From Shewanella woodyi ATCC 51908 (lineage in GTDB: Bacteria; Pseudomonadota; Gammaproteobacteria; Enterobacterales; Shewanellaceae): DNA of 64,000 nucleotides. This document shows, piece after piece, positions 14,203-55,200 of this stretch (positions within the stretch are counted from its first letter, which is position 1; each line of letters starts with the position of its first letter). A program made the translations under genes and the position numbers. The DNA is taken from contig NC_010506.1 in NCBI RefSeq assembly GCF_000019525.1, forward strand, positions 1,364,001 through 1,428,000, written 5' to 3'. The notes below the pieces were generated by a model. The model was not told the DNA's origin and searched no databases. It saw only the letters and a program-made list of their open reading frames with translations.

Positions 14203-14400
14203 AGTTAGGCTTATTCAGCGGACGAAAGAGGAGATTTTACACTAGATACAGCCAGTGATCAGCCACTTTTTCTGTTCTCTGACTTTCATCTCTATCATCA
14301 GGGTTTAGCTTGCCTGACAGCAAGTTTCAAATATCTTTATGTTGGGTTCATTGGGCTGGTTTGATGTTTGGTTGGTTTGCTGGATACCACAGCAGCGAGG

Positions 14401-14567
14401 TTGTTTATTGCTTGCAGCAGGCCAAATGTGTAAATACTTCTATGACTCGGCGCAAGTATATCCCTATAGCCTCTACGACAGCGTCCATGCTGTCGAAGGT
14501 CATAGCCGCGTTCACACTTGATTATTGATCTCTTCGATTGAGGTTTTGGGCTGTAACTCATTTTTGG
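14401..14567 (-). repeat. Structured GGA-hairpin repeat, copy A (inverted)
   Basis: Read on the minus strand, this copy starts with CAAAAATGAGTTAC and TCAATCGAAGAGA, as the other copies do. It then shows an outer stem (GTGTGAACGC with GTATTTACAC), a middle stem CTATGAC/GTCATAG, and inner hairpins. One inner hairpin has arms CGACAGC/GCTGTCG around ATGGAC (14476-14495); another is the TATAGGGATATA segment. It ends with GCAAGCAATAAACA. The middle-stem sequence differs from the other copies but still pairs. No open frame here looks coding. Confidence 0.7.
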
Positions 14568-14640
14568 ACAATAATACGTTAGACCTAAAGTTCTGGAAGT
14601 GACAATTGCTATTAGAGAAAGTATAGAGTTCTGAAATGCG

Positions 14641-14765
14641 GTAACGCCGTGTTAAGTAGTGAGTAACGTTATCACCTAACCTAAACCATTACACCGTAAA
14701 CACAAAACTCAATTGGAACTAAAATGCCAAGCGTTGGGAGCCTGCCTTAAACGCTTTGTATGGAT
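14641..14765. other. Possible degenerate attC-like site
   Basis: The stretch has GTAACGCCGTGTTAAG at the left and an inverted pair AAGCGTT / AAACGCTT at 14733-14760 at the right, next to the stop of the 14786-15469 gene. The AACGCC and CTTAAACGCTTTGT wording resembles Vibrio-type attC sites, but a complete set of core boxes is not present. Confidence 0.3.
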
Positions 14766-14785
14766 TATAAACCCACCTGATTTTG

Positions 14786-15469
14786 TTATGTGTTCTTTTT
14801 CGTTTGTGTGTTGATCGACGCTTGAACTATATCCATAATTTTGTAAGGTTTGACTTTTATATGAAACAATGAGACTTGAAAATGAGTACCTGCAAGGATT
14901 AGGTAATCCTGCATCATTCGTTTTTCTAGGACTTCAATATTAGATACTACATCTGCTAACTCCATTTTGAGTGACGTTAGATACTGAATCTCAAAATGTT
15001 CATATACTTCAACAGGAATTGTATCTTTGTGTTTATCAATTACAGTCCCAGTAATATCATGAATTTGTCTCTGATTAGTGAACAATGACTCTGGAATATG
15101 CAAGCCCCAGTTTCGATGTTGATTGAAGCTATTTGAAATTTGCGCTTCTTCATTAGTTAGCTGTTCAAAGCTGACATCTAAGCAAGAAGCTCCTTTGACT
15201 AGTAATTTGCGAAACTTCCTGTACGAAACAGCACTTTTAGATTCATCACCGAACAAGTTAAATAAATAGTATAGAAGTGCTTTTGACTTATCACTGATGG
15301 ACTCATATGCGGTTGCCTCCACTACTTCAGCGTCGGGGTCGGACTCTATTAAGTCATTAATTTCTAAAAGGTAACGCTTAAGCCTTGCCTTATACTTCAC
15401 AGTATCTGCAATTATTTGGGACAAATAATAAATGTAATCCTCTTTTTCTCGAAATTTGTAAACTCTCAC
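14786..15469 (-). CDS. Protein of unknown function, 227 aa
   Basis: I do not recognise a family. The protein is soluble, mostly helical, and rich in Lys, Glu, Tyr and Ile. It has a charged helical N-terminus (YKFREKEDYIYYLSQII) and a region near residues 105-125 with SFNQHRNWGLHIPESLF. No signal peptide or membrane segment is visible. The gene is AT-rich compared with valS/holC and is a lone minus-strand ORF between attC-like hairpins, which is how an integron gene cassette would look. It could also be an ordinary orphan gene. Confidence 0.65.
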   Translation of the reverse strand: MRVYKFREKEDYIYYLSQIIADTVKYKARLKRYLLEINDLIESDPDAEVVEATAYESISDKSKALLYYLFNLFGDESKSAVSYRKFRKLLVKGASCLDVSFEQLTNEEAQISNSFNQHRNWGLHIPESLFTNQRQIHDITGTVIDKHKDTIPVEVYEHFEIQYLTSLKMELADVVSNIEVLEKRMMQDYLILAGTHFQVSLFHIKVKPYKIMDIVQASINTQTKKNT

Positions 15470-15505
15470 TTAATAGTGACCTCTAATACGTATTTGGCAT
15501 AGAAA

Positions 15506-15606
15506 ACATAACGTCCGACTCACCGATCACATTTTTGTTGGCGACTTTTTGTGCGTGTTTCTGCACAAAAGGTGACAGTGAAAATTTGTCCGGTGCAGTT
15601 GCTTGA
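15506..15606. other. attC-like recombination site
   Basis: The boundary heptamer ACATAAC at 15506-15512 is followed by an imperfect long hairpin: CACCG/CGGTG outer arms, CTTTTTGTGC/GCACAAAAGG inner arms and an octanucleotide loop. It ends near GTTGCTT, just before the stop of the 15615-16016 gene. A compact palindrome placed directly after the ORF stop, with AAC...GTT ends, is the expected cassette architecture. Confidence 0.5.
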
Positions 15607-15614
15607 TTAGTGGC

Positions 15615-16016
15615 TTATCCAATTTGAACCTCTTTAATATCAGGATGCTTCTCAAGCAGCTCTTTAAAGTAGACAAAACAACCATCTGAAGTGCTCATCT
15701 TGTTTTTGCCTAAGAGCTTTTCTTTAAAGCTACGATGTTTGTCAACTTGGAATACCCACTCTAGCTCAGCTGTTGGATCATCACCTTGCTCGAAGAAAGC
15801 ACAAGAACCAATAAGATAATTGTTACCCTCATATTCCAGTTCGCTATACCAGCCCCAATCTTCTGCATCTGGTTCGGAAATGGCCAACTCGTCCGACAGC
15901 TCCTTTCGAAGCCACTCCAAAAGCGATAGCCCATAAATAGGATTTATAGGGTTTTTTCTCTCTTTTGAAACATCAAACAGAGATGTCCTGAAATGAATCA
16001 CTTGGTTCATAATCAT
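15615..16016 (-). CDS. Conserved hypothetical cassette-type protein, 133 aa
   Basis: A small soluble protein with a distinctive middle section (DAEDWGWYSELEYEGNNYLI) and an acidic stretch before ELEWVFQVDKHR, then a LLGKNKM segment. I recall similar short proteins in mobile gene cassettes but cannot name a domain or function. The ORF lies tightly between two attC-like palindromes (15506-15606 and 16024-16090) with almost no room for a promoter, as expected for a cassette gene. Confidence 0.7.
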   Translation of the reverse strand: MIMNQVIHFRTSLFDVSKERKNPINPIYGLSLLEWLRKELSDELAISEPDAEDWGWYSELEYEGNNYLIGSCAFFEQGDDPTAELEWVFQVDKHRSFKEKLLGKNKMSTSDGCFVYFKELLEKHPDIKEVQIG

Positions 16017-16023
16017 CCTTGCC

Positions 16024-16090
16024 CACTAACATTTGTATAGTGTGCATGTGCGTATACTTGGCAAAACGCGCATGCACATTTAACAAACCT
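16024..16090. other. attC-like palindrome
   Basis: An ACTAACATTTGTATA start is followed by near-perfect arms TGTGCATGTGCG / CGCGCATGCACA (11 of 12 paired), then AACAAAC, which can pair with the early TTTGT. ACATTTGTATA also opens the site at 20729. Both sites share, in opposite orientation, a CGCGTTTTGCCAAG block. The right-hand core box is not clear. Confidence 0.4.
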
Positions 16091-16296
16091 ATTCTTTAAG
16101 TCTTACTAAAGTAAAGTTATTGATTGATAAGCACTCTACCAGAGTGATGTAGGATAAACGAGTACGAAATTTTAAAAGTGAGCATTGATATTGATGTCTT
16201 ATCTAAAATGTTCAGTAGCAGTTACTTATCGATTAGCAAAAGTAGGTCAACTGGCTTACTACTCTTCTGTGCCGTTTATCGCCCGTAACACATAAC

Positions 16297-16584
16297 GGGG
16301 CAAAAATCAGTTACGAAACCCAACCAAGTAAAGCCAAATCGAAGAGATACTCTTGCTTAAAATCAGGGGGGTGTAGATGCGGCAGTGACCGTCCGTGACA
16401 TGGACGTCACGGCCGAGACTATAGGGATATACTCGTGTCGTGTCACTGAAGTAGCTGCACATAAGCCTGCGGCAAGCAATAAACAGCAATGAAGGTTAGA
16501 CCTTCAGACACATTCCCAATACCAATTCAGATAAAAGTTAACACATAGAAAATGTAATCAGCCTTCATTTGAAGGCCCACCTTC
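16297..16584 (+). repeat. Structured GGA-hairpin repeat, copy B
   Basis: The copy begins GGGGCAAAAATCAGTTACG immediately after an ACATAAC heptamer (16290-16296). It has a middle stem CAGTGAC/GTCACTG, a hairpin with arms CCGTGAC/GTCACGG around ATGGAC (16393-16412), and a TATAGGGATATA hairpin near 16420. A small GAAGGT/ACCTTC hairpin follows, then the terminal palindrome GCCTTCATTTGAAGGC at 16561-16576. The final 80 or so bases are nearly identical to copy E. Confidence 0.8.
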
Positions 16585-16842
16585 TCGCCACCAAACAGAT
16601 GTTTGGCGTTTTTGTTGTTTGAATTTCACTTCAGTTGTCGATAGTTTATCTATAAATCATGTTTAGCCCGTGATAGCAGTGCTTATACCAAAGCTTTAGG
16701 TATTTAAGTTGAGATAGAATATGCGAAATTCAACGCCATACTTAACCTTGCAGTGCAACAAATTATTATGGATGTCTTAGTTATCCTCTCTAAGAGATGG
16801 ATGGATCGCAGTTCATTATCCTAACCAGAGAGTCTAGGTTAG

Positions 16843-16925
16843 GCGTTCTAGATGAATCGCCCTGTGCGGAGCCGCATGCAGGGTGGTGTGGGGGCTGGAG
16901 GCTAGATACCTCCGGCTACCCGATT
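16843..16925 (+). mobile_element. Group II intron 3' remnant (domains V-VI)
   Basis: A domain-V-like hairpin, CCCTGTGCGG paired with CCGCATGCAGGG and carrying the 2-nt TG bulge on the 3' arm, is preceded by a CGC triad. It is followed by GGTGTGG and a domain-VI-like hairpin (GGGGCTGGAGG with CCTCCGGCTACCC, bulged A), ending CCCGAT. This is how the 3' ends of bacterial group II introns look. No reverse transcriptase or 5' ribozyme part is visible within 300 bases to the left, so it is a fragment. GTTAGGC sits just upstream. Confidence 0.6.
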
Positions 16926-16933
16926 AGCTTTCT

Positions 16934-18337
16934 TTAACTACTAAACTGAAAGCTTTCTACCATTTCTATTCTTTGTTTTAAGCTATCTAGACTAATAGAG
17001 TTTCTGAACCCACTAAAACTAGTGGATATTTGAACTATTTTGTCTGAGTAACGCTTTTGCTCTTTACTAGAACTTTCATCATTTTCTATATCTTCATGAC
17101 GTTTCAAAGAATCCCCAACAGTATTATTATAATCATCGTACTTGGCCCCGATTAAATAGCTTTCTACTAAAGCGCAAGAATGCGAGCCTAGCAATTCTGA
17201 TAGAGGAATCATGGCGTACAGGTCACTAATTAACTTTTCTGGAGTATCACCCTTATTGATATAGTCATTATAATTATCATAATGGTACTCTTTAGCAATT
17301 ATTAGAAATGCTAATAATGAAGGGTAAAGATATATGTTTTCAGCTGTTGATTGGATGACCAAATTTATCTTTGCGAAAAGTTGTTCAACTTCACGTAAAG
17401 ATAATTTTTTAGCATTAGCTAGTAATTTAAAAGTATCTTTTAGGTGATCCTTGTCATATTGAAACTCTTGATATTGCATTCTTTTTTGAAAGAAATCATT
17501 AAACCCAAAGTTTATGTAAAGTTGATCAATAAATGCATCTAGGTCACTTTCCGGTAGAGTATATTCAATATCAATAAATCGCCTTAAATAACCTATCGCC
17601 TCGAACTTATCGCCATATATGCCTTTTACGCTGTGAGATAACTGAACCTTGTCCATAGCTAAAACGAAAACCAGACCTTCAATATCAAGTAAGTGTTTTA
17701 TCCTTTCAAGTAATTCAATTGCATAAGTTGGTCTACACCTATCTAATTCATCAATGAAAATGAACAAACGGGTAGATGGGCTTCCTTCATTGCTTAGGAC
17801 TTTAGATACGCCAGATTTAAATTGGGAAATTGCTTCTTTATTTTTTGTGTATTCTGATAAAAAGTCTTTAGTTAAACCTTCCATCACTTTAGATGACTCA
17901 TCCTCAATGATTTTTTCAGCATCTAAAATTCCTGCTGTACCTACTTTTATTAATGCAGGTAGTCCTTTCCTTAGAATATGAGAACCTGCTTTTTTTGTAG
18001 TTTCCCATGCTTTATTTTTCTCTTCATCACCATTAATTAATGTTTCTATACTTTCGTTTATTTCACCAAGAAAAGCCTGTAAAGGATCACTAGCAAAGTC
18101 AGTTTCCCATGCACTAAAATAAATAGAATTATGCTCCTTAATTGCTAACTGAGCATGTAACATTTCTAGAAATGTAGTTTTACCTTGCCCCCAAGGAGCA
18201 TTTACCGATAAAACGATAGGTGAACTAATGTTCTCTAATAAGGTTGAAAAATTATCAACATGAGGTTGACGGTTCAATCTGTCATTTTTAAAAGGATTTT
18301 CTGAATCTACTATGACTTTATGAGATTTAAATTCCAT
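16934..18337 (-). CDS. KAP-family P-loop NTPase
   Basis: 467 residues. Walker A is at about residues 47-55 (APWGQGKTTF) and Walker B near 195-205 (FIFIDELDRCRP), followed by the family's YAIELLERIKHLLDIEGLVFVLAMDK segment. There is no obvious transmembrane insertion between the Walker motifs, so it is probably cytoplasmic, unlike many KAP proteins. Base composition is clearly AT-rich. The gene sits alone between a group II intron remnant and an attC-like site. KAP NTPases are common on plasmids and defence-type islands; a defence or addiction role here is only a suggestion. Confidence 0.88.
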   Translation of the reverse strand: MEFKSHKVIVDSENPFKNDRLNRQPHVDNFSTLLENISSPIVLSVNAPWGQGKTTFLEMLHAQLAIKEHNSIYFSAWETDFASDPLQAFLGEINESIETLINGDEEKNKAWETTKKAGSHILRKGLPALIKVGTAGILDAEKIIEDESSKVMEGLTKDFLSEYTKNKEAISQFKSGVSKVLSNEGSPSTRLFIFIDELDRCRPTYAIELLERIKHLLDIEGLVFVLAMDKVQLSHSVKGIYGDKFEAIGYLRRFIDIEYTLPESDLDAFIDQLYINFGFNDFFQKRMQYQEFQYDKDHLKDTFKLLANAKKLSLREVEQLFAKINLVIQSTAENIYLYPSLLAFLIIAKEYHYDNYNDYINKGDTPEKLISDLYAMIPLSELLGSHSCALVESYLIGAKYDDYNNTVGDSLKRHEDIENDESSSKEQKRYSDKIVQISTSFSGFRNSISLDSLKQRIEMVESFQFSS

Positions 18338-18359
18338 TTTGCACCTAGTGTGATGTGAA

Positions 18360-18450
18360 AGCTAACGCCCTGTTAACAGGCAAAAAATTGTTGGCTAAAA
18401 TAGTGACGAAGGAACAAAAGCCAACTGTTTTTTGTCCTTGTTTAACAGCT
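18360..18450. other. attC-like site, left part (split by the IS)
   Basis: This is the best attC candidate. AGCTAACGCC is followed by a long imperfect hairpin: CTGTTAACAGGC and GGCAAAAAATTGTTGGCT (18379-18396) pair with AGCCAACTGTTTTTTGTCC (18419-18437) and TTGTTTAACAG, with one extrahelical A and a short mismatch. That is the attC pattern. The expected closing core box is missing here, because IS sequence begins, and GTTATGT occurs at the other IS edge (20058-20064). Confidence 0.6.
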
Positions 18451-18529
18451 TGATAATCATTGAGCCTCCTCCCTAGCAAACCGCATTAGCAGTATGCTGA
18501 AGGTGACGAAACCAACAGGAGAAAGCTCA

Positions 18530-19573
18530 ATGAGATTTTATAATAACTCACATCCATACTACTGTGGAATTGATTTACATGCGCGCTTACTTTATGTCTG
18601 CATTATTGATTCTAAAGGGAAAGTTGCTGTACATAAAAAGATTGATGCAGACAAAGGTGACCTGTTGCGCATACTTGAACCATATATAGGTAATGTCATA
18701 GTCGGCGTTGAGTGCATGCACTGCTGGTATTGGGTCTCTGATTGGTGTGCTGAACTTGGCATCGACTTTGTCTTAGGCCATGCCCTGTATATGAAGGCTA
18801 TTCACGGAGGTAAAACCAAAAACGATAAAATCGACTCCTTTAAAATAGCGTCGCTACTTCGTGGTGGTAACTTCCCAATCGCTTACAACTACCCTAACGA
18901 AATGCGTGCTGCCCGCGACCTACTACGTCGCAGAATGAAGATAGTCCGTCACGGTGCCATGCTCAAAGCTCATGTTGTTAATACAAACAGCCAGTACAAC
19001 TTACCTGCGACAGAGTTAAATCTTAAAAACATTTCCGCAAGACAAAAATTACGTCAACAATATAAAGACCCTATCGTACAGCGAAATATAGACTTAGACA
19101 TGGCACTTCTCGATTGCTATGCCAAGGAACTCGCTCAGGTTGAATGGTTTATTGAGAAACAAGCCAAAAACCATAATCCCGTTTATCTTGAATTACTTAA
19201 AACCGTTCCAGGTATTGGTAAGATTTTATCGCTGACTATCCTTTATGAAATCGGTGATGTCACTCGGTTTGAATCAGTTCAAAAATTTGCCTCATACTCT
19301 CGTTTAGTGAAATGCAAAGCTGAGTCAGCTGGTAAAACCTACGGCACCAACGGCAATAAAATCGGTAATGCGCACTTGAAATGGGCGTTCTCTGAAGCGG
19401 CAGTGCTTTACCTTCGTGGTAATGATAAAGCGCGTAACTATCTTAACCGATTACAAAAACGGATGAGCAAAGCCAAAGCACTATCTGCGCTAGCTCATAA
19501 GCTTGGACGTTGTGTCTACTTCATGCTGAAAAACAAAACGGTGTTTGATGAACAACGATTTTTGAAAGGATAA
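18530..19573 (+). CDS. IS110-family transposase (DEDD recombinase)
   Basis: 347 residues from the ATG at 18530, which has AGGAGAAAG just upstream; the earlier in-frame ATG at 18494 lacks such a site. The N-terminal DEDD domain shows GIDLHARLLYV, VGVECMHCWYW and KNDKIDSFKIASLL. The C-terminal Tnp20 domain shows LKTVPGIGKILSLTILYEIG and NGNKIGNAHLKWAFSEAA, with the usual serine region. The frame is intact, so the element may be active. Members use an element-encoded guide RNA to choose target and donor DNA. Confidence 0.95.
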   Translation: MRFYNNSHPYYCGIDLHARLLYVCIIDSKGKVAVHKKIDADKGDLLRILEPYIGNVIVGVECMHCWYWVSDWCAELGIDFVLGHALYMKAIHGGKTKNDKIDSFKIASLLRGGNFPIAYNYPNEMRAARDLLRRRMKIVRHGAMLKAHVVNTNSQYNLPATELNLKNISARQKLRQQYKDPIVQRNIDLDMALLDCYAKELAQVEWFIEKQAKNHNPVYLELLKTVPGIGKILSLTILYEIGDVTRFESVQKFASYSRLVKCKAESAGKTYGTNGNKIGNAHLKWAFSEAAVLYLRGNDKARNYLNRLQKRMSKAKALSALAHKLGRCVYFMLKNKTVFDEQRFLKG

Positions 19574-20039
19574 GTCGCGCAATAAGGTGAGCTGAACGTC
19601 TAACTAGATACTCTTAAAAAGAGAAGCGAGCATGACTGTGAATGATGTGGCTAATGAAATAATAATTTCTCACCATCATCACTATGCCAAGTGCGACTTA
19701 AGCTACATAGACTTGATTAGACACCTTATTGGCGCGCATTAATTAATACAATCAACAAAGTCGTTTACCCCCTAAATGAGCCTGAAACTAACTGTGCTAT
19801 AAGCACCTGAGACTTGAATAGTGCCATCTTAGGGTTAACCGATAACTGTCTAGTGCCCCTGATATTCCAAAGGATTGGACTGCGTCAGGCTGCGATAAGA
19901 TCGTAATAAGAGAGCCTCTATATGTGTTTGCTGTAAACGATGATTTGACAGCGCACCGACATGCGAAGTGGATGAATTTGTTGATTGATTTAAATTTGAC
20001 TGCACAAGCAGCCAAACTAGTTAAGCTCGCCTATTGACT
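19574..20039 (+). ncRNA. Non-coding right end of the IS, likely bridge/seek RNA region
   Basis: The 466 bases between the transposase stop and the right inverted repeat hold no convincing gene. In IS1111-group elements the guide RNA that pairs with target and donor is encoded downstream of the transposase, so this stretch is where it should lie. I did not derive its fold. Self-complementary segments are present, for example around 19855-19890. The assignment rests on position and family knowledge. Confidence 0.45.
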
Positions 20040-20057
20040 GGCGGGAGGCTCATATGT

Positions 20058-20064
20058 GTTATGT
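20058..20064. other. attC core-like heptamer right of the IS
   Basis: GTTATGT directly follows the IS right end and lies next to the stop of the 20073-20648 gene. It is the reverse complement of the ACATAAC heptamers at 15506, 16290 and 20729, and could be the displaced end of the site at 18360-18450. Confidence 0.45.
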
Positions 20065-20072
20065 AACGGGAC

Positions 20073-20648
20073 CTATTGAGTTAAACCATGATTCAAATAA
20101 TCTTGGTTAAAATCGGAAAAGGCCTGAAGTGTTCTAACTGTAGGGTGCGGATAAAATACAGGAGTAAGACCATTATCCTTACAAAACTTCAAAACCTCGT
20201 GCCCCATAAGTTCAATCGTTTTCTTTTCTTGTTTATCAGAGATATTTGCTCTGCGCCAATGGTTGAAATAAATTCTATCTTCAAAATTCGAAACGGCTTT
20301 ACCAACGACTCTAGCATATTGAATCGGAGTGACTTCTGTGAAATTTACATGAGGTAACTGATTATCTAGAAATTCGTAGAAATGGATAGGATCAAATCCT
20401 CCATGATTACGACAAGCAGCTAGTTGTTCAACTGCATCGCGATGATTGATATAACCGTTTGCATAATCTCCATTTAAAGAGCAAGTAAAACCCAAGTTGT
20501 GGTCAACAAATGCAAACAAAAATTTCTTTTGTATTCTTGAGTATGCTGTCTCAATTGCACAATTGTGATATTGAATAGTAAAAAACGCTACATCCACTCC
20601 TTGAACAATCATTCTTTGTTCAAAAGCAGAAATATTATTGAAAATCAT
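20073..20648 (-). CDS. Protein of unknown function, 191 aa
   Basis: I do not recognise the family. The protein is soluble, rich in aromatic residues and histidine, and starts with NISAFEQRMIVQG. The middle holds GYINHRDAVEQLAACRNHGGFDP, and the C-terminal part is helical and ends in SDFNQDYLNHG. It has no signal peptide or membrane segment. It lies on the minus strand between the attC-like palindrome at 20729 and the split site at 18360/20058, the same arrangement as the other candidate cassettes. AT-rich. Confidence 0.65.
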   Translation of the reverse strand: MIFNNISAFEQRMIVQGVDVAFFTIQYHNCAIETAYSRIQKKFLFAFVDHNLGFTCSLNGDYANGYINHRDAVEQLAACRNHGGFDPIHFYEFLDNQLPHVNFTEVTPIQYARVVGKAVSNFEDRIYFNHWRRANISDKQEKKTIELMGHEVLKFCKDNGLTPVFYPHPTVRTLQAFSDFNQDYLNHGLTQ

Positions 20649-20728
20649 AGTAAATCCTTTTAACTCATTTGCTTAATTATAAAGTGGGGTGAATCAACTC
20701 GATATTCAAGAGGCCTAAATGATTAGTT

Positions 20729-20803
20729 ACATAACATTTGTATATACGGCTTGCGCGTTTTGCCAAGCCATGTTGAGAAAGCGTGCGCAGCAATATGCCT
20801 GAA
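20729..20803. other. attC-like recombination site
   Basis: ACATAACATTTGTATA is followed by the hairpin GGCTTG/CAAGCC around CGCGTTTTGC, then GCGTGCGCAGC, which can pair with the TTGCGCG part. It lies upstream of the 20073-20648 gene as a preceding cassette's site would. It shares its first 11 bases after the core with the site at 16024. Confidence 0.45.
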
Positions 20804-21160
20804 AAGTTAATTAATAACAGCTTATTAAACATTTATGCTTAAGATTGTATCCAATACACATTCGGACAAAACTTAGTCGCACACTTTGTTTGCCTCGTAT
20901 CTCCTGCAAACCGAGCAAGCGCGTTTTTAGTTACTTGAATTTACATCTATTTTTATTTTCACTCAACAACAAACCGTGAACTGATTGCGCAAAAACTTAG
21001 AGATTTACCGCACTAAACCGATACTACTGTATAAAAGTGCAAACATTGGTTAGCTAAAAGGTTGTCGCTAGACGGAACCCATACCTTTCTAACTGATGAG
21101 GAAAAGTATTACAAAGAGGTCAGTGCTGCGTAGGACAAATTACTGGAGATAACACATAAA
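20804..21160. other. Intergenic region without a recognised gene
   Basis: This gap between the attC-like site and the tandem repeat block holds no credible ORF, terminator or known RNA. Its right end carries AACACATAAA, a near match to the ACATAAC heptamer that precedes copy B of the structured repeat. Confidence 0.5.
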
Positions 21161-21437
21161 GGGGCAAAAATCAGTTATGAAACCCTACCAAGTAAAGATA
21201 AATCGAAGAGACAAATGAACAGGTGTAGGTGCGGCTGCGAGTTTCGGTTTCAAGGATGAAACCGTAAAGCGGCCATGGATGGCTTCACAGCGTCTCGCAG
21301 AAGTAACTACACATTCCCCCGCTGGAGGCGATAGGTAACCATTAAGGTACGACCTTCAAACAGACCACCAAATAACAAAACACCAGAATATTAATCAAGA
21401 AATGTAATAAGACTTCATTCGAAGGCTAGCTAACTTT
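21161..21437 (+). repeat. Structured GGA-hairpin repeat, copy C
   Basis: First of three head-to-tail copies. It begins GGGGCAAAAATCAGTTATG, has outer stem GTGTAG/CTACAC and middle stem CTGCGAG/CTCGCAG. Hairpins are CGGTTTCA/TGAAACCG with loop AGGA (21245-21264) and GCCA/TGGC with loop TGGA (21272-21283), then AAGGT/ACCTT. It ends with CTTCATTCGAAG. Confidence 0.85.
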
Positions 21438-21764
21438 GGGGCAAAAATCAGTTACGAATAGCTACTAAGCCAAAATCGAAGAGATAAATTATCAGGTGTA
21501 GGTGTGGCTGCGAGTTTCCAAAACAGGGATGTTTTGGTATAGCCCACAGGGCAGAAAATGTTCCAGACATTTTTCTGCATTTCCTACTATCCGTGTAGGT
21601 CAGACGTGCTTGTGGCGTCTCGTAGAAGTACCTGCACATAAGCCTGCGGCGGGCAATAGATACCAGTTAAGGTATGACCTTCAATAACCTATCAAATATC
21701 AAACTAACCAAATGAAACAAGTAAGCGAATGTGCTTAGTCTTCATTCGAAGGCTAACCAATTTT
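21438..21764 (+). repeat. Structured GGA-hairpin repeat, copy D (longest)
   Basis: Middle copy, 327 bases, with the same start, outer stem and middle stem (CTGCGAG with CTCGTAG, one wobble). Its first inner hairpin, arms CCAAAACA/TGTTTTGG around GGGA (21518-21537), contains ACAGGGATGT, a complete match to the core of the CsrA binding consensus. Two or three extra hairpins then occur, two of which present GGA on the opposite strand. It ends with CTTCATTCGAAGG. Confidence 0.85.
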
Positions 21765-22038
21765 GTGGCAAAAATCAGCTACGAAACCCTACCAAGTAAA
21801 GCCAAATCGAAGAGGAACATTAACAGGTGTAGATACGGCTGCGAGTTTCGGTTTCAAGGATGAAACCGTAAAGCGGCCATGGATGGCTTCACAGCGTCTC
21901 GCAGAAGTATCTGCACATACCCTGCTGGAGGCGATAAACAGCAATGAAGGTACGACCTTCAGACACATTCCCAATACCAATTCAGATAAAAGTTAACACA
22001 TAGAAAATGTAATCAGCCTTCATTTGAAGGCCCACCTT
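21765..22038 (+). repeat. Structured GGA-hairpin repeat, copy E
   Basis: Third tandem copy. Its structured centre is almost identical to copy C: CGGTTTCA/TGAAACCG with loop AGGA at 21849-21868 and GCCA/TGGC with loop TGGA at 21876-21887. Its 3' third is almost identical to copy B, including the terminal GCCTTCATTTGAAGGC palindrome. The outer stem GTGTAGATAC/GTATCTGCAC has a single wobble. The C-like centre and B-like tail suggest recombination between copies. Confidence 0.85.
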
Positions 22039-22216
22039 CACGTTTACTTCACGCTTGTAGAGTTACGCTAACCATATTTGATGTCATTGCTAGGTTCTAG
22101 CACTTTTCAAAAACACAACTGATCTTATGGTTACTAAAAATTAGTGCTTAGTGATGACGTAAATATTAATTTAATACTGTTTAATGAAATGCTTTTTGAT
22201 AAAAGGGAGTCATGAT

Positions 22217-54935: not shown

Positions 54936-55020
54936 GTAAATGTACAAAGGCAAACCAATCGAAAGGTTGGGACGCAAAGCTTCCGGTCTAAGGGGATAGT
55001 GTTTGAGAGGGTCGCACTCT
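54936..55020 (+). promoter_or_regulatory. c-di-GMP-I (GEMM) riboswitch upstream of chitinase
   Basis: The conserved GEMM-I core is clear: AAAGGCAAACCA, GAAAGG-TTGGGACGCAAAG (tetraloop/receptor), then a CTTCCGGTCTAAGG stem around position 54980. This is the class that binds c-di-GMP. The sequence from about 55020 to 55195, before the chitinase ATG, would be the expression platform and can form several hairpins (for example around GTAACG and GAACCG), but I cannot say whether binding turns the gene on or off. Confidence 0.93.
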
Positions 55021-55200
55021 TAACGTTATTTTGGTACCTATGATAGCGGGGATGTTACAGGAAGTTTCTTCATGAAGAGCCTAGTAACGATAAGAACCGA
55101 AAAGGTCTATGTACTGGGTGTTTATGGTATTAAGAATAGGTTTTCTCCTGTTCATGCTTTGTTTGCCTTATTGAATACTTATAAAAATATAAAGCAATAA

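Follow-up and report, generated by a model that had tools for sequence, protein, structure and literature searches.

Several described systems come close to the repeats analysed here. Integron attC sites are kept by fold more than by sequence and flank swappable genes, and swappable genes also lie between the sites described below. The sRNAs CsrB/CsrC and RsmX/Y/Z are a second point of likeness, with ANGGA in hairpin loops that fit the CsrA binding consensus. REP, BIME and REPIN sequences, together with RAYT or 'TIRYT' enzymes, resemble the present repeats: both are intergenic, numerous and arranged as inverted pairs or tandem arrays, and a related HUH enzyme lies close to some copies. One study reports both GTAG-1 and GTAG-2 REPs from Shewanella woodyi (PMC3733652). 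The nearest Rfam family is TwoAYGGAY (RF01731), which shares two A-N-GGA-N hairpin loops on a common stem. Extracts of two sources list TwoAYGGAY for the human gut, gamma-Proteobacteria and Clostridiales (PMC2864571) and propose it as CsrA-binding (PMC4333381). A literature survey, mostly at title level, turned up no earlier description of the cargo units reported here.

The window is a stretch of 64,000 nucleotides from S. woodyi ATCC 51908 (NC_010506.1, positions 1,364,001 to 1,428,000); the S. woodyi genome searched is a single contig of 5,935,403 bases. An original prediction, made from the letters of the window alone, had described five related copies (A to E) of a structured repeat, either CsrB-like decoy RNAs or a structured mobile element. 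All five are present where it placed them and can be aligned, with copy A on the minus strand. The repeats are long folded inverted ends of cargo-carrying units, with the 3' side outward. In the window, the unit runs from a type-II end, copy A, beside holC to the tandem type-I ends C to E, and copy B is a type-I end between two cargo blocks (Table 1).

Table 1. Features of the cargo unit in the S. woodyi window (positions count from the first letter of the window)
Feature	Position	Strand	Remarks
Copy A	14308..14570	-	type-II end, outer side left; terminal hairpin about 14308-14324
Copy A, folded core	14427-14517	-	covariance model match, 91.6 bits; type II by tail
Two cargo ORFs, function not assigned	14786-15469, 15615-16016 (span 14786..16016)	-	between ends A and B
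Copy B	16297..16582	+	type-I end; core 16371-16461; 95.5 bits
KAP-family P-loop NTPase, cargo	16934..18337	-	PF07693, found once among 42 scanned cargo proteins and attributed to this ORF on inspection of its sequence
IS110-family transposase within cargo region	18494..19573	+	NF033542, 211 bits
Cargo ORF	20073..20648	-	no Pfam match over cut-off
Conserved inner stretch beside type-I end	21035..21160	+	similar stretches upstream of other type-I copies
Copy C	21161..21430	+	first of three tandem type-I ends; core 21223-21313; 105.3 bits
Copy D	21438..21756	+	second tandem type-I end; core 21496-21638; 77 bits
Copy E	21765..22038	+	outermost type-I end; core 21827-21917; 109.1 bits
Copy E, terminal hairpin			GCCTTCATTTGAAGGC

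The common ends claimed for all five copies fail for copy A, which is without CCTTCATTTGAAGG and has a different hairpin, GCTTGCCTGACAGCAAG, at its outer end. Copy C ends in ACTTCATTCGAAGG and copy D in TCTTCATTCGAAGG. The middle stem does differ among copies as described, with pairing kept, and copy D does carry, at 21523-21532, ACAGGGATGT, the sequence that the original prediction had matched to the core of the CsrA/RsmA SELEX consensus. An insert of about 52 nt (about 21551-21603) splits the second loop of copy D. Inserts of 51-52 nt between GG and A of an ANGGAN loop also occur at five other loci (L094, L097, L053, L089 and L106); the hairpins inside such inserts have ATCC-type loops, which give further GGAT-type hairpins on the opposite strand.

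The inner stretch beside the type-I end was considered as coding, and its window frame of 32 residues (32 codons) was searched in 127 Shewanella genomes. The frames matching it measure 20-73 aa in nearly all listed matches, and several contain internal stops; owing to these short frames and stops in several relatives, the stretch was dropped as coding. Two known RNA families match elsewhere in the window: a group II intron (RF00029, 44 bits, 16855-16924, plus strand) between copy B and the KAP gene, with no intron-encoded protein beside it in the ORF list, and a c-di-GMP-I riboswitch (66.2 bits, 54939-55059, plus strand).

One fold is common to copies A to E: a two-part stem and a three-way junction cap with two ANGGAN hexaloops. 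For its alignment, 66 cores were located by anchors outside the loops, and 27 cores of 89-92 nt, at most 93% identical and without insert, were kept. Stem P1 has 10 pairs and P2 has 7; P3 (2+7 pairs) bears the loop C-ANGGAN-G, and P4 (3+3 pairs) bears ANGGAN and a 5-nt bulge. In this alignment 95.7% of cells pair, and 22 of the 32 pairs show changes on both sides. Cells changed on both sides number 127, against a mean of 37.4 in shuffles that ignore relatedness, and none of 500 shuffles reached as many; further pair types were the sole measure that shuffles matched (32 of 500). When the 3' partner was slid by 1-3 columns as a control, only 11-16 such cells were left. The compensatory change seen at first in five copies thus exceeds chance, and selection for a folded single strand, as first proposed, is supported. 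RNAalifold alone recovers 28 pairs of the same fold, minus the seventh pair of P1 and the base of P4; pair 49-68 of P4 is non-standard in 15 of 26 sequences. Minimum-energy folds predicted for individual copies match the common fold only partly and not in every copy, and that of copy B is different inside the cap.

The folding strand can be read from the mismatches. G·T cells outnumber A·C cells by 66:3 in the 27-core alignment, by 163:11 in 61 S. woodyi rows and by 34:8 in 40 matches outside Shewanella. If both DNA strands made use of the structure, the two counts should be equal; the folding strand is therefore the one bearing the ANGGAN loops, and selection acts on its folding. The G·T excess fits RNA best, and single-stranded DNA is also compatible with it; since single-stranded DNA too tolerates G·T better than A·C, the ratio of 66:3 alone is no proof of RNA.

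The family is abundant and extends beyond the genus. With copy E as query, blastn finds 69 places in the S. woodyi genome and, with scoring limited to five candidates in each genome, one match or more in at least 88 of 129 Shewanella genomes. A covariance model of the copies, which the original prediction had proposed, yields 80 matches in S. woodyi. Across the order, with stricter filters and at most 14 candidates scored per genome, it has matches in at least 67 of 295 genomes, 20 of them Shewanella, and in 19 of 99 genera; 16 chosen genomes hold 2 to 133 matches each. Beyond Shewanella, stems with unrelated sequences still pair, and the loops read ANGGAN in 37 of 39 distinct rows for the first and 39 of 39 for the second, in matches to a search model that itself contains these loops. 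In one genus the flgE-flgF interval has a match in 5 of 13 genomes; these copies are single, lie in either orientation and have an outer stem extended into long perfect inverted repeats of differing sequence. Short inverted pairs in tandem arrays of three, BIME-like, were seen at two loci outside Shewanella (L162 and L172). A plasmid or phage origin was considered and rejected: copy C has no match in the plasmid and phage collections, and the one IMG/VR contig (L328) that matches one of two end patterns is without a model match.

The order of the copies reveals the units. Among neighbours of opposite orientation within 10 kb in three Shewanella genomes, 45 pairs are '-+' and one is '+-' (17/0 in S. 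woodyi, 13/0 in G111 and 15/1 in G073). Within 40 kb the counts are 19 to 3, 15 to 5 and 19 to 2, respectively; the excess fades beyond 20 kb, as expected. The sole '+-' pair (L324 in G073) lies between two '-+' units in a '-+-+' cluster, and the genes inside it are read as chromosomal, on the xerD side. Outside Shewanella, adjacent copies 140-211 bases apart give 15 '-+' against 10 '+-' pairs (one array counted twice); both orders alternate there, and the outward-end rule can thus not be claimed for those genera.

The 3' tails are of two types: type I ends in ...AATGTAATCAGCCTTCATTCGAAGGCT and type II in ...GATATTTGAAACTTGTTATCNGACAAGT. In both, the terminal hairpins vary with pairing kept, as judged by eye. 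Scoring against seed tails classed 57 of the 80 S. woodyi copies, those within the loci analysed. Among 17 facing pairs in S. woodyi, 16 are I-II, one is II-II with weak scores and none is I-I, whereas 14 tandem neighbours comprise 10 I-I, four II-II and no mixed pairs. It follows that a unit has two different ends and that tandem copies repeat one end. The original prediction's alternative, a structured mobile element, is therefore supported, and its own criterion of mobile-type ends points to the mobile side: left and right ends are inverted, of two kinds, and tipped by varying hairpins.

The cargo between the ends is diverse. The set comprises 43 ORFs between the ends of 16 units, of which 42 were scanned. 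Among the best 25 of 26 Pfam families, UvrD, OLD-like TOPRIM, cytosine methylase, DUF2357, PDDEXK_7, GmrSD_N, KAP NTPase, T5orf172 and IS110 domains occur once each and AAA_15 in two proteins; many cargo ORFs belong to no family found. PADLOC, among the best 25 of 238 families, places GajA models in two proteins (best 3.4e-208). Read by position, the unit at L223 is Gabija-like, that at L235 is McrBC-like with a methylase, and that at L224 has a GmrSD_N protein beside an ATPase. By these predicted functions, the cargo includes anti-phage genes, a statement of presence and not of enrichment over chromosomal genes. Transposases of the RNA-guided IS110 family lie inside several units (in the window and at L314, L318 and L321); at L318 no long ORF other than the transposase lies between the ends, and unit ends may be IS110 targets.

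These observations make folded cargo-unit ends the best-supported identity of the repeats, and the structural observation behind the original prediction is right and strong. In the account that we consider reasonably probable as a whole, a unit consists of one type-I and one type-II end with genes between them, the ends often doubled or tripled in tandem. Such units are gained, or their cargo exchanged, at given chromosomal spots. Transcripts leaving the cargo on either side would carry the fold at their edge, where it would act as RNA and its two loops could offer a pair of CsrA-type sites. A RAYT-like HUH transposase might move the units in trans, or cargo might be exchanged through recombination within the ends; these two options are put forward with less support than the rest.

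The HUH proteins form a family like that at L230:4485-5462, with 22 matches merged into 13 loci. Seven of the 13 lie within 3 kb of a copy, against a random mean of 0.82 (0 of 5000 draws as high), and three within 1.5 kb (74 of 5000 draws as high). The other six are away from copies, and one of the seven near ones is outside the ends. The proteins at L230 and L238 have an intact HLH and a Y---NP signature, which is a class-2 signature according to an extract of PMC6006769. Against the NCBIfam RAYT model the HUH protein scores 4.5e-9 and 36 bits, below the cut-off of 80, and it has no Pfam match. The mixed proximity, a placement with no fixed distance, site or orientation relative to the ends, and the sub-cut-off RAYT score keep the enzyme at the rank of a candidate. 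Two other movers were considered and set aside. Classical Y1 transposases (PF01797) have 15 matches in S. woodyi, 13 of them IS200-like and about 148 aa long, and are not the family inside the units; IS110, in the window and several other units, is considered a passenger.

The same enzyme suggests the rival reading that survives best: the fold would be what a RAYT-like HUH (Y1) transposase recognises in single-stranded DNA, and the repeats a very large REP/REPIN relative with no RNA role. This is quite possible, although we would not expect it. REPIN-like inverted pairs and tandem arrays, a fold kept while the stems diverge, and the HUH genes near copies with their intact motifs all agree with it. 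It is less at ease with the lack of any requirement for a GTAG-type tag among the features found, with the variable placement and orientation of the HUH genes and the six loci elsewhere, and with loops in the CsrA consensus, which a DNA enzyme does not need.

Shared chromosomal spots bear on how the units come and go. Beside holC, homology of the flank with G082 and G010 stops at window position 14307, and the terminal hairpin starts at the next; this maps the insertion on its left side against the empty site. Copies are present in the holC spacer in S. woodyi, in G062 (two '+' copies with other genes) and in G016 ('-' and '+' copies around a 209-aa ORF). The corresponding stretches of G082, G010, G099, G111 and G041 have no model match, and no copy was found in those of the first three. 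By eye, G111 has a decayed copy, and G041 retains a short scar-like segment in which the two terminal hairpins are still present and which runs into sequence resembling the S. woodyi right flank. At yaaA (S. woodyi, G111 and G073), at L224 and L228 (G111) and at L232 (G111 and G073), the flanks match and the inside differs (blastn, 1e-30). The cargo thus differs among species at the same spot, which means that units were gained or cargo exchanged. Left boundaries at shared spots are offset by tens of bases from one species to another. Because species do not share the gene order beyond the ABC-transporter spot, the boundaries were read at the holC spacer.

Part of this pattern is also what passive, old, dispersed repeats would leave, with cargo exchanged by homologous recombination alone and no dedicated enzyme: outer tails and flanks are common at a spot, the inside differs, and breaks fall inside or near the ends. 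Units also lie between convergent ORFs in 9 of the 14 S. woodyi cases with both flanks called (L221-L236). We hold this reading unlikely, because it leaves unexplained the pairing of type I with type II, the covarying terminal hairpins and the many separate spots.

The loops are the feature that brings in CsrA. The first loop reads ANGGAN in 50 of the 51 S. woodyi copies in which it is uninterrupted; 10 of the 61 distinct rows carry an insert at that place. The second reads ANGGAN in 46 of 61, the others being 7-nt loops (six), inserts or extensions (eight) and one other loop. Among 174 hexaloop hairpins on both strands of the rest of the window taken as background, none reads ANGGAN, with the caution that the rows were found by a model trained on such loops. 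ANGGAN loops match the CsrA binding consensus in sequence. The sequences support a resemblance of two loops per copy to CsrA sites, kept while the stems change, and the fold may be used at the RNA level inside the ends.

It was from such loops that each copy had been proposed as its own small CsrB-like decoy RNA gene soaking up CsrA. Two ANGGAN hexaloops per copy, kept with a C-G closing pair as the stems change, and the many copies per genome speak for it. So does one of 19 related loci scanned, L167, which with 44 bits passes the gathering score of 43 set for TwoAYGGAY, with its proposed CsrA binding. The window itself has no TwoAYGGAY match at the Rfam gathering threshold, and none up to E=5 in 14300-22200 and 21150-22060; nor do its copies match any Csr/Rsm family in Rfam. 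An extract of one paper on S. piezotolerans sRNAs holds nothing on these repeats. Free decoy genes have no need of an inverted-pair arrangement around cargo genes, and the idea of decoy RNA genes is accordingly disfavoured and now looks improbable. Least probable is palindrome correction, in which the paired changes would stem from template switching in quasi-palindromes and not from selection on a fold: the relatives with long perfect inverted repeats in the outer stem are where correction would act, but loop and junction letters stay constant amid very different stems, and correction of double-stranded DNA favours neither G·T nor A·C.

What stands of the decoy idea, paired CsrA-like loops under selection on one strand, gives rise to a bolder version of the cargo-unit reading, which is offered tentatively and is rather doubtful. 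It has enzyme-less cargo units with anti-phage genes, spread in Shewanella, whose asymmetric ends would both encode an outward CsrA-binding RNA domain that ties cargo transcripts, and perhaps movement, to CsrA; other genera of the order would have related folded repeats. If the cargo-unit reading is right, one kind of unit, recognisable by fold and not by sequence, houses much of the accessory gene content of a marine genus, and unit cargo, including anti-phage systems, could be listed in any genome. Orphan RNA annotations, TwoAYGGAY and Ysr224, would be explained as parts of mobile DNA, and whether selfish elements recruit CsrA via RNA of their ends would become a testable question.

Compared with the known systems, the units differ from each in a definite way. 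Unlike integron cassettes, they have inverted and not direct ends, and an integrase gene was not noticed among the cargo ORFs listed. REP criteria ask for a palindrome of 20-40 bp with a GTAG/CGTC foot tag, whereas the present unit measures about 270 nt, forms a three-way junction with fixed loops and has other genes between the members of a pair; GTGTAG occurs inside the outer stem in Shewanella and is not kept outside it. The Yersinia sRNA Ysr224 (RF02770) matches several copies antisense, on the minus strand (L170 1516-1622 and L162 1516-1624), at best with E=1.2e-4 in L170 and far below its gathering score of 70. Its reverse-complement consensus has the same two ANGGAN hairpins, the difference being the opposite strand, which suggests that this annotated sRNA may be the antisense of such an element. 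From TwoAYGGAY the repeats differ in that the window copies fall short of E=5, in the second position of the loops, which takes any base and not a pyrimidine alone (A-Y-GGA-Y in that family), and in their place in the ends of cargo units. CsrB/CsrC and RsmX/Y/Z, finally, are individual sRNA genes of long standing that each offer many sites, whereas the repeats carry two sites per copy and are dispersed, paired around cargo.
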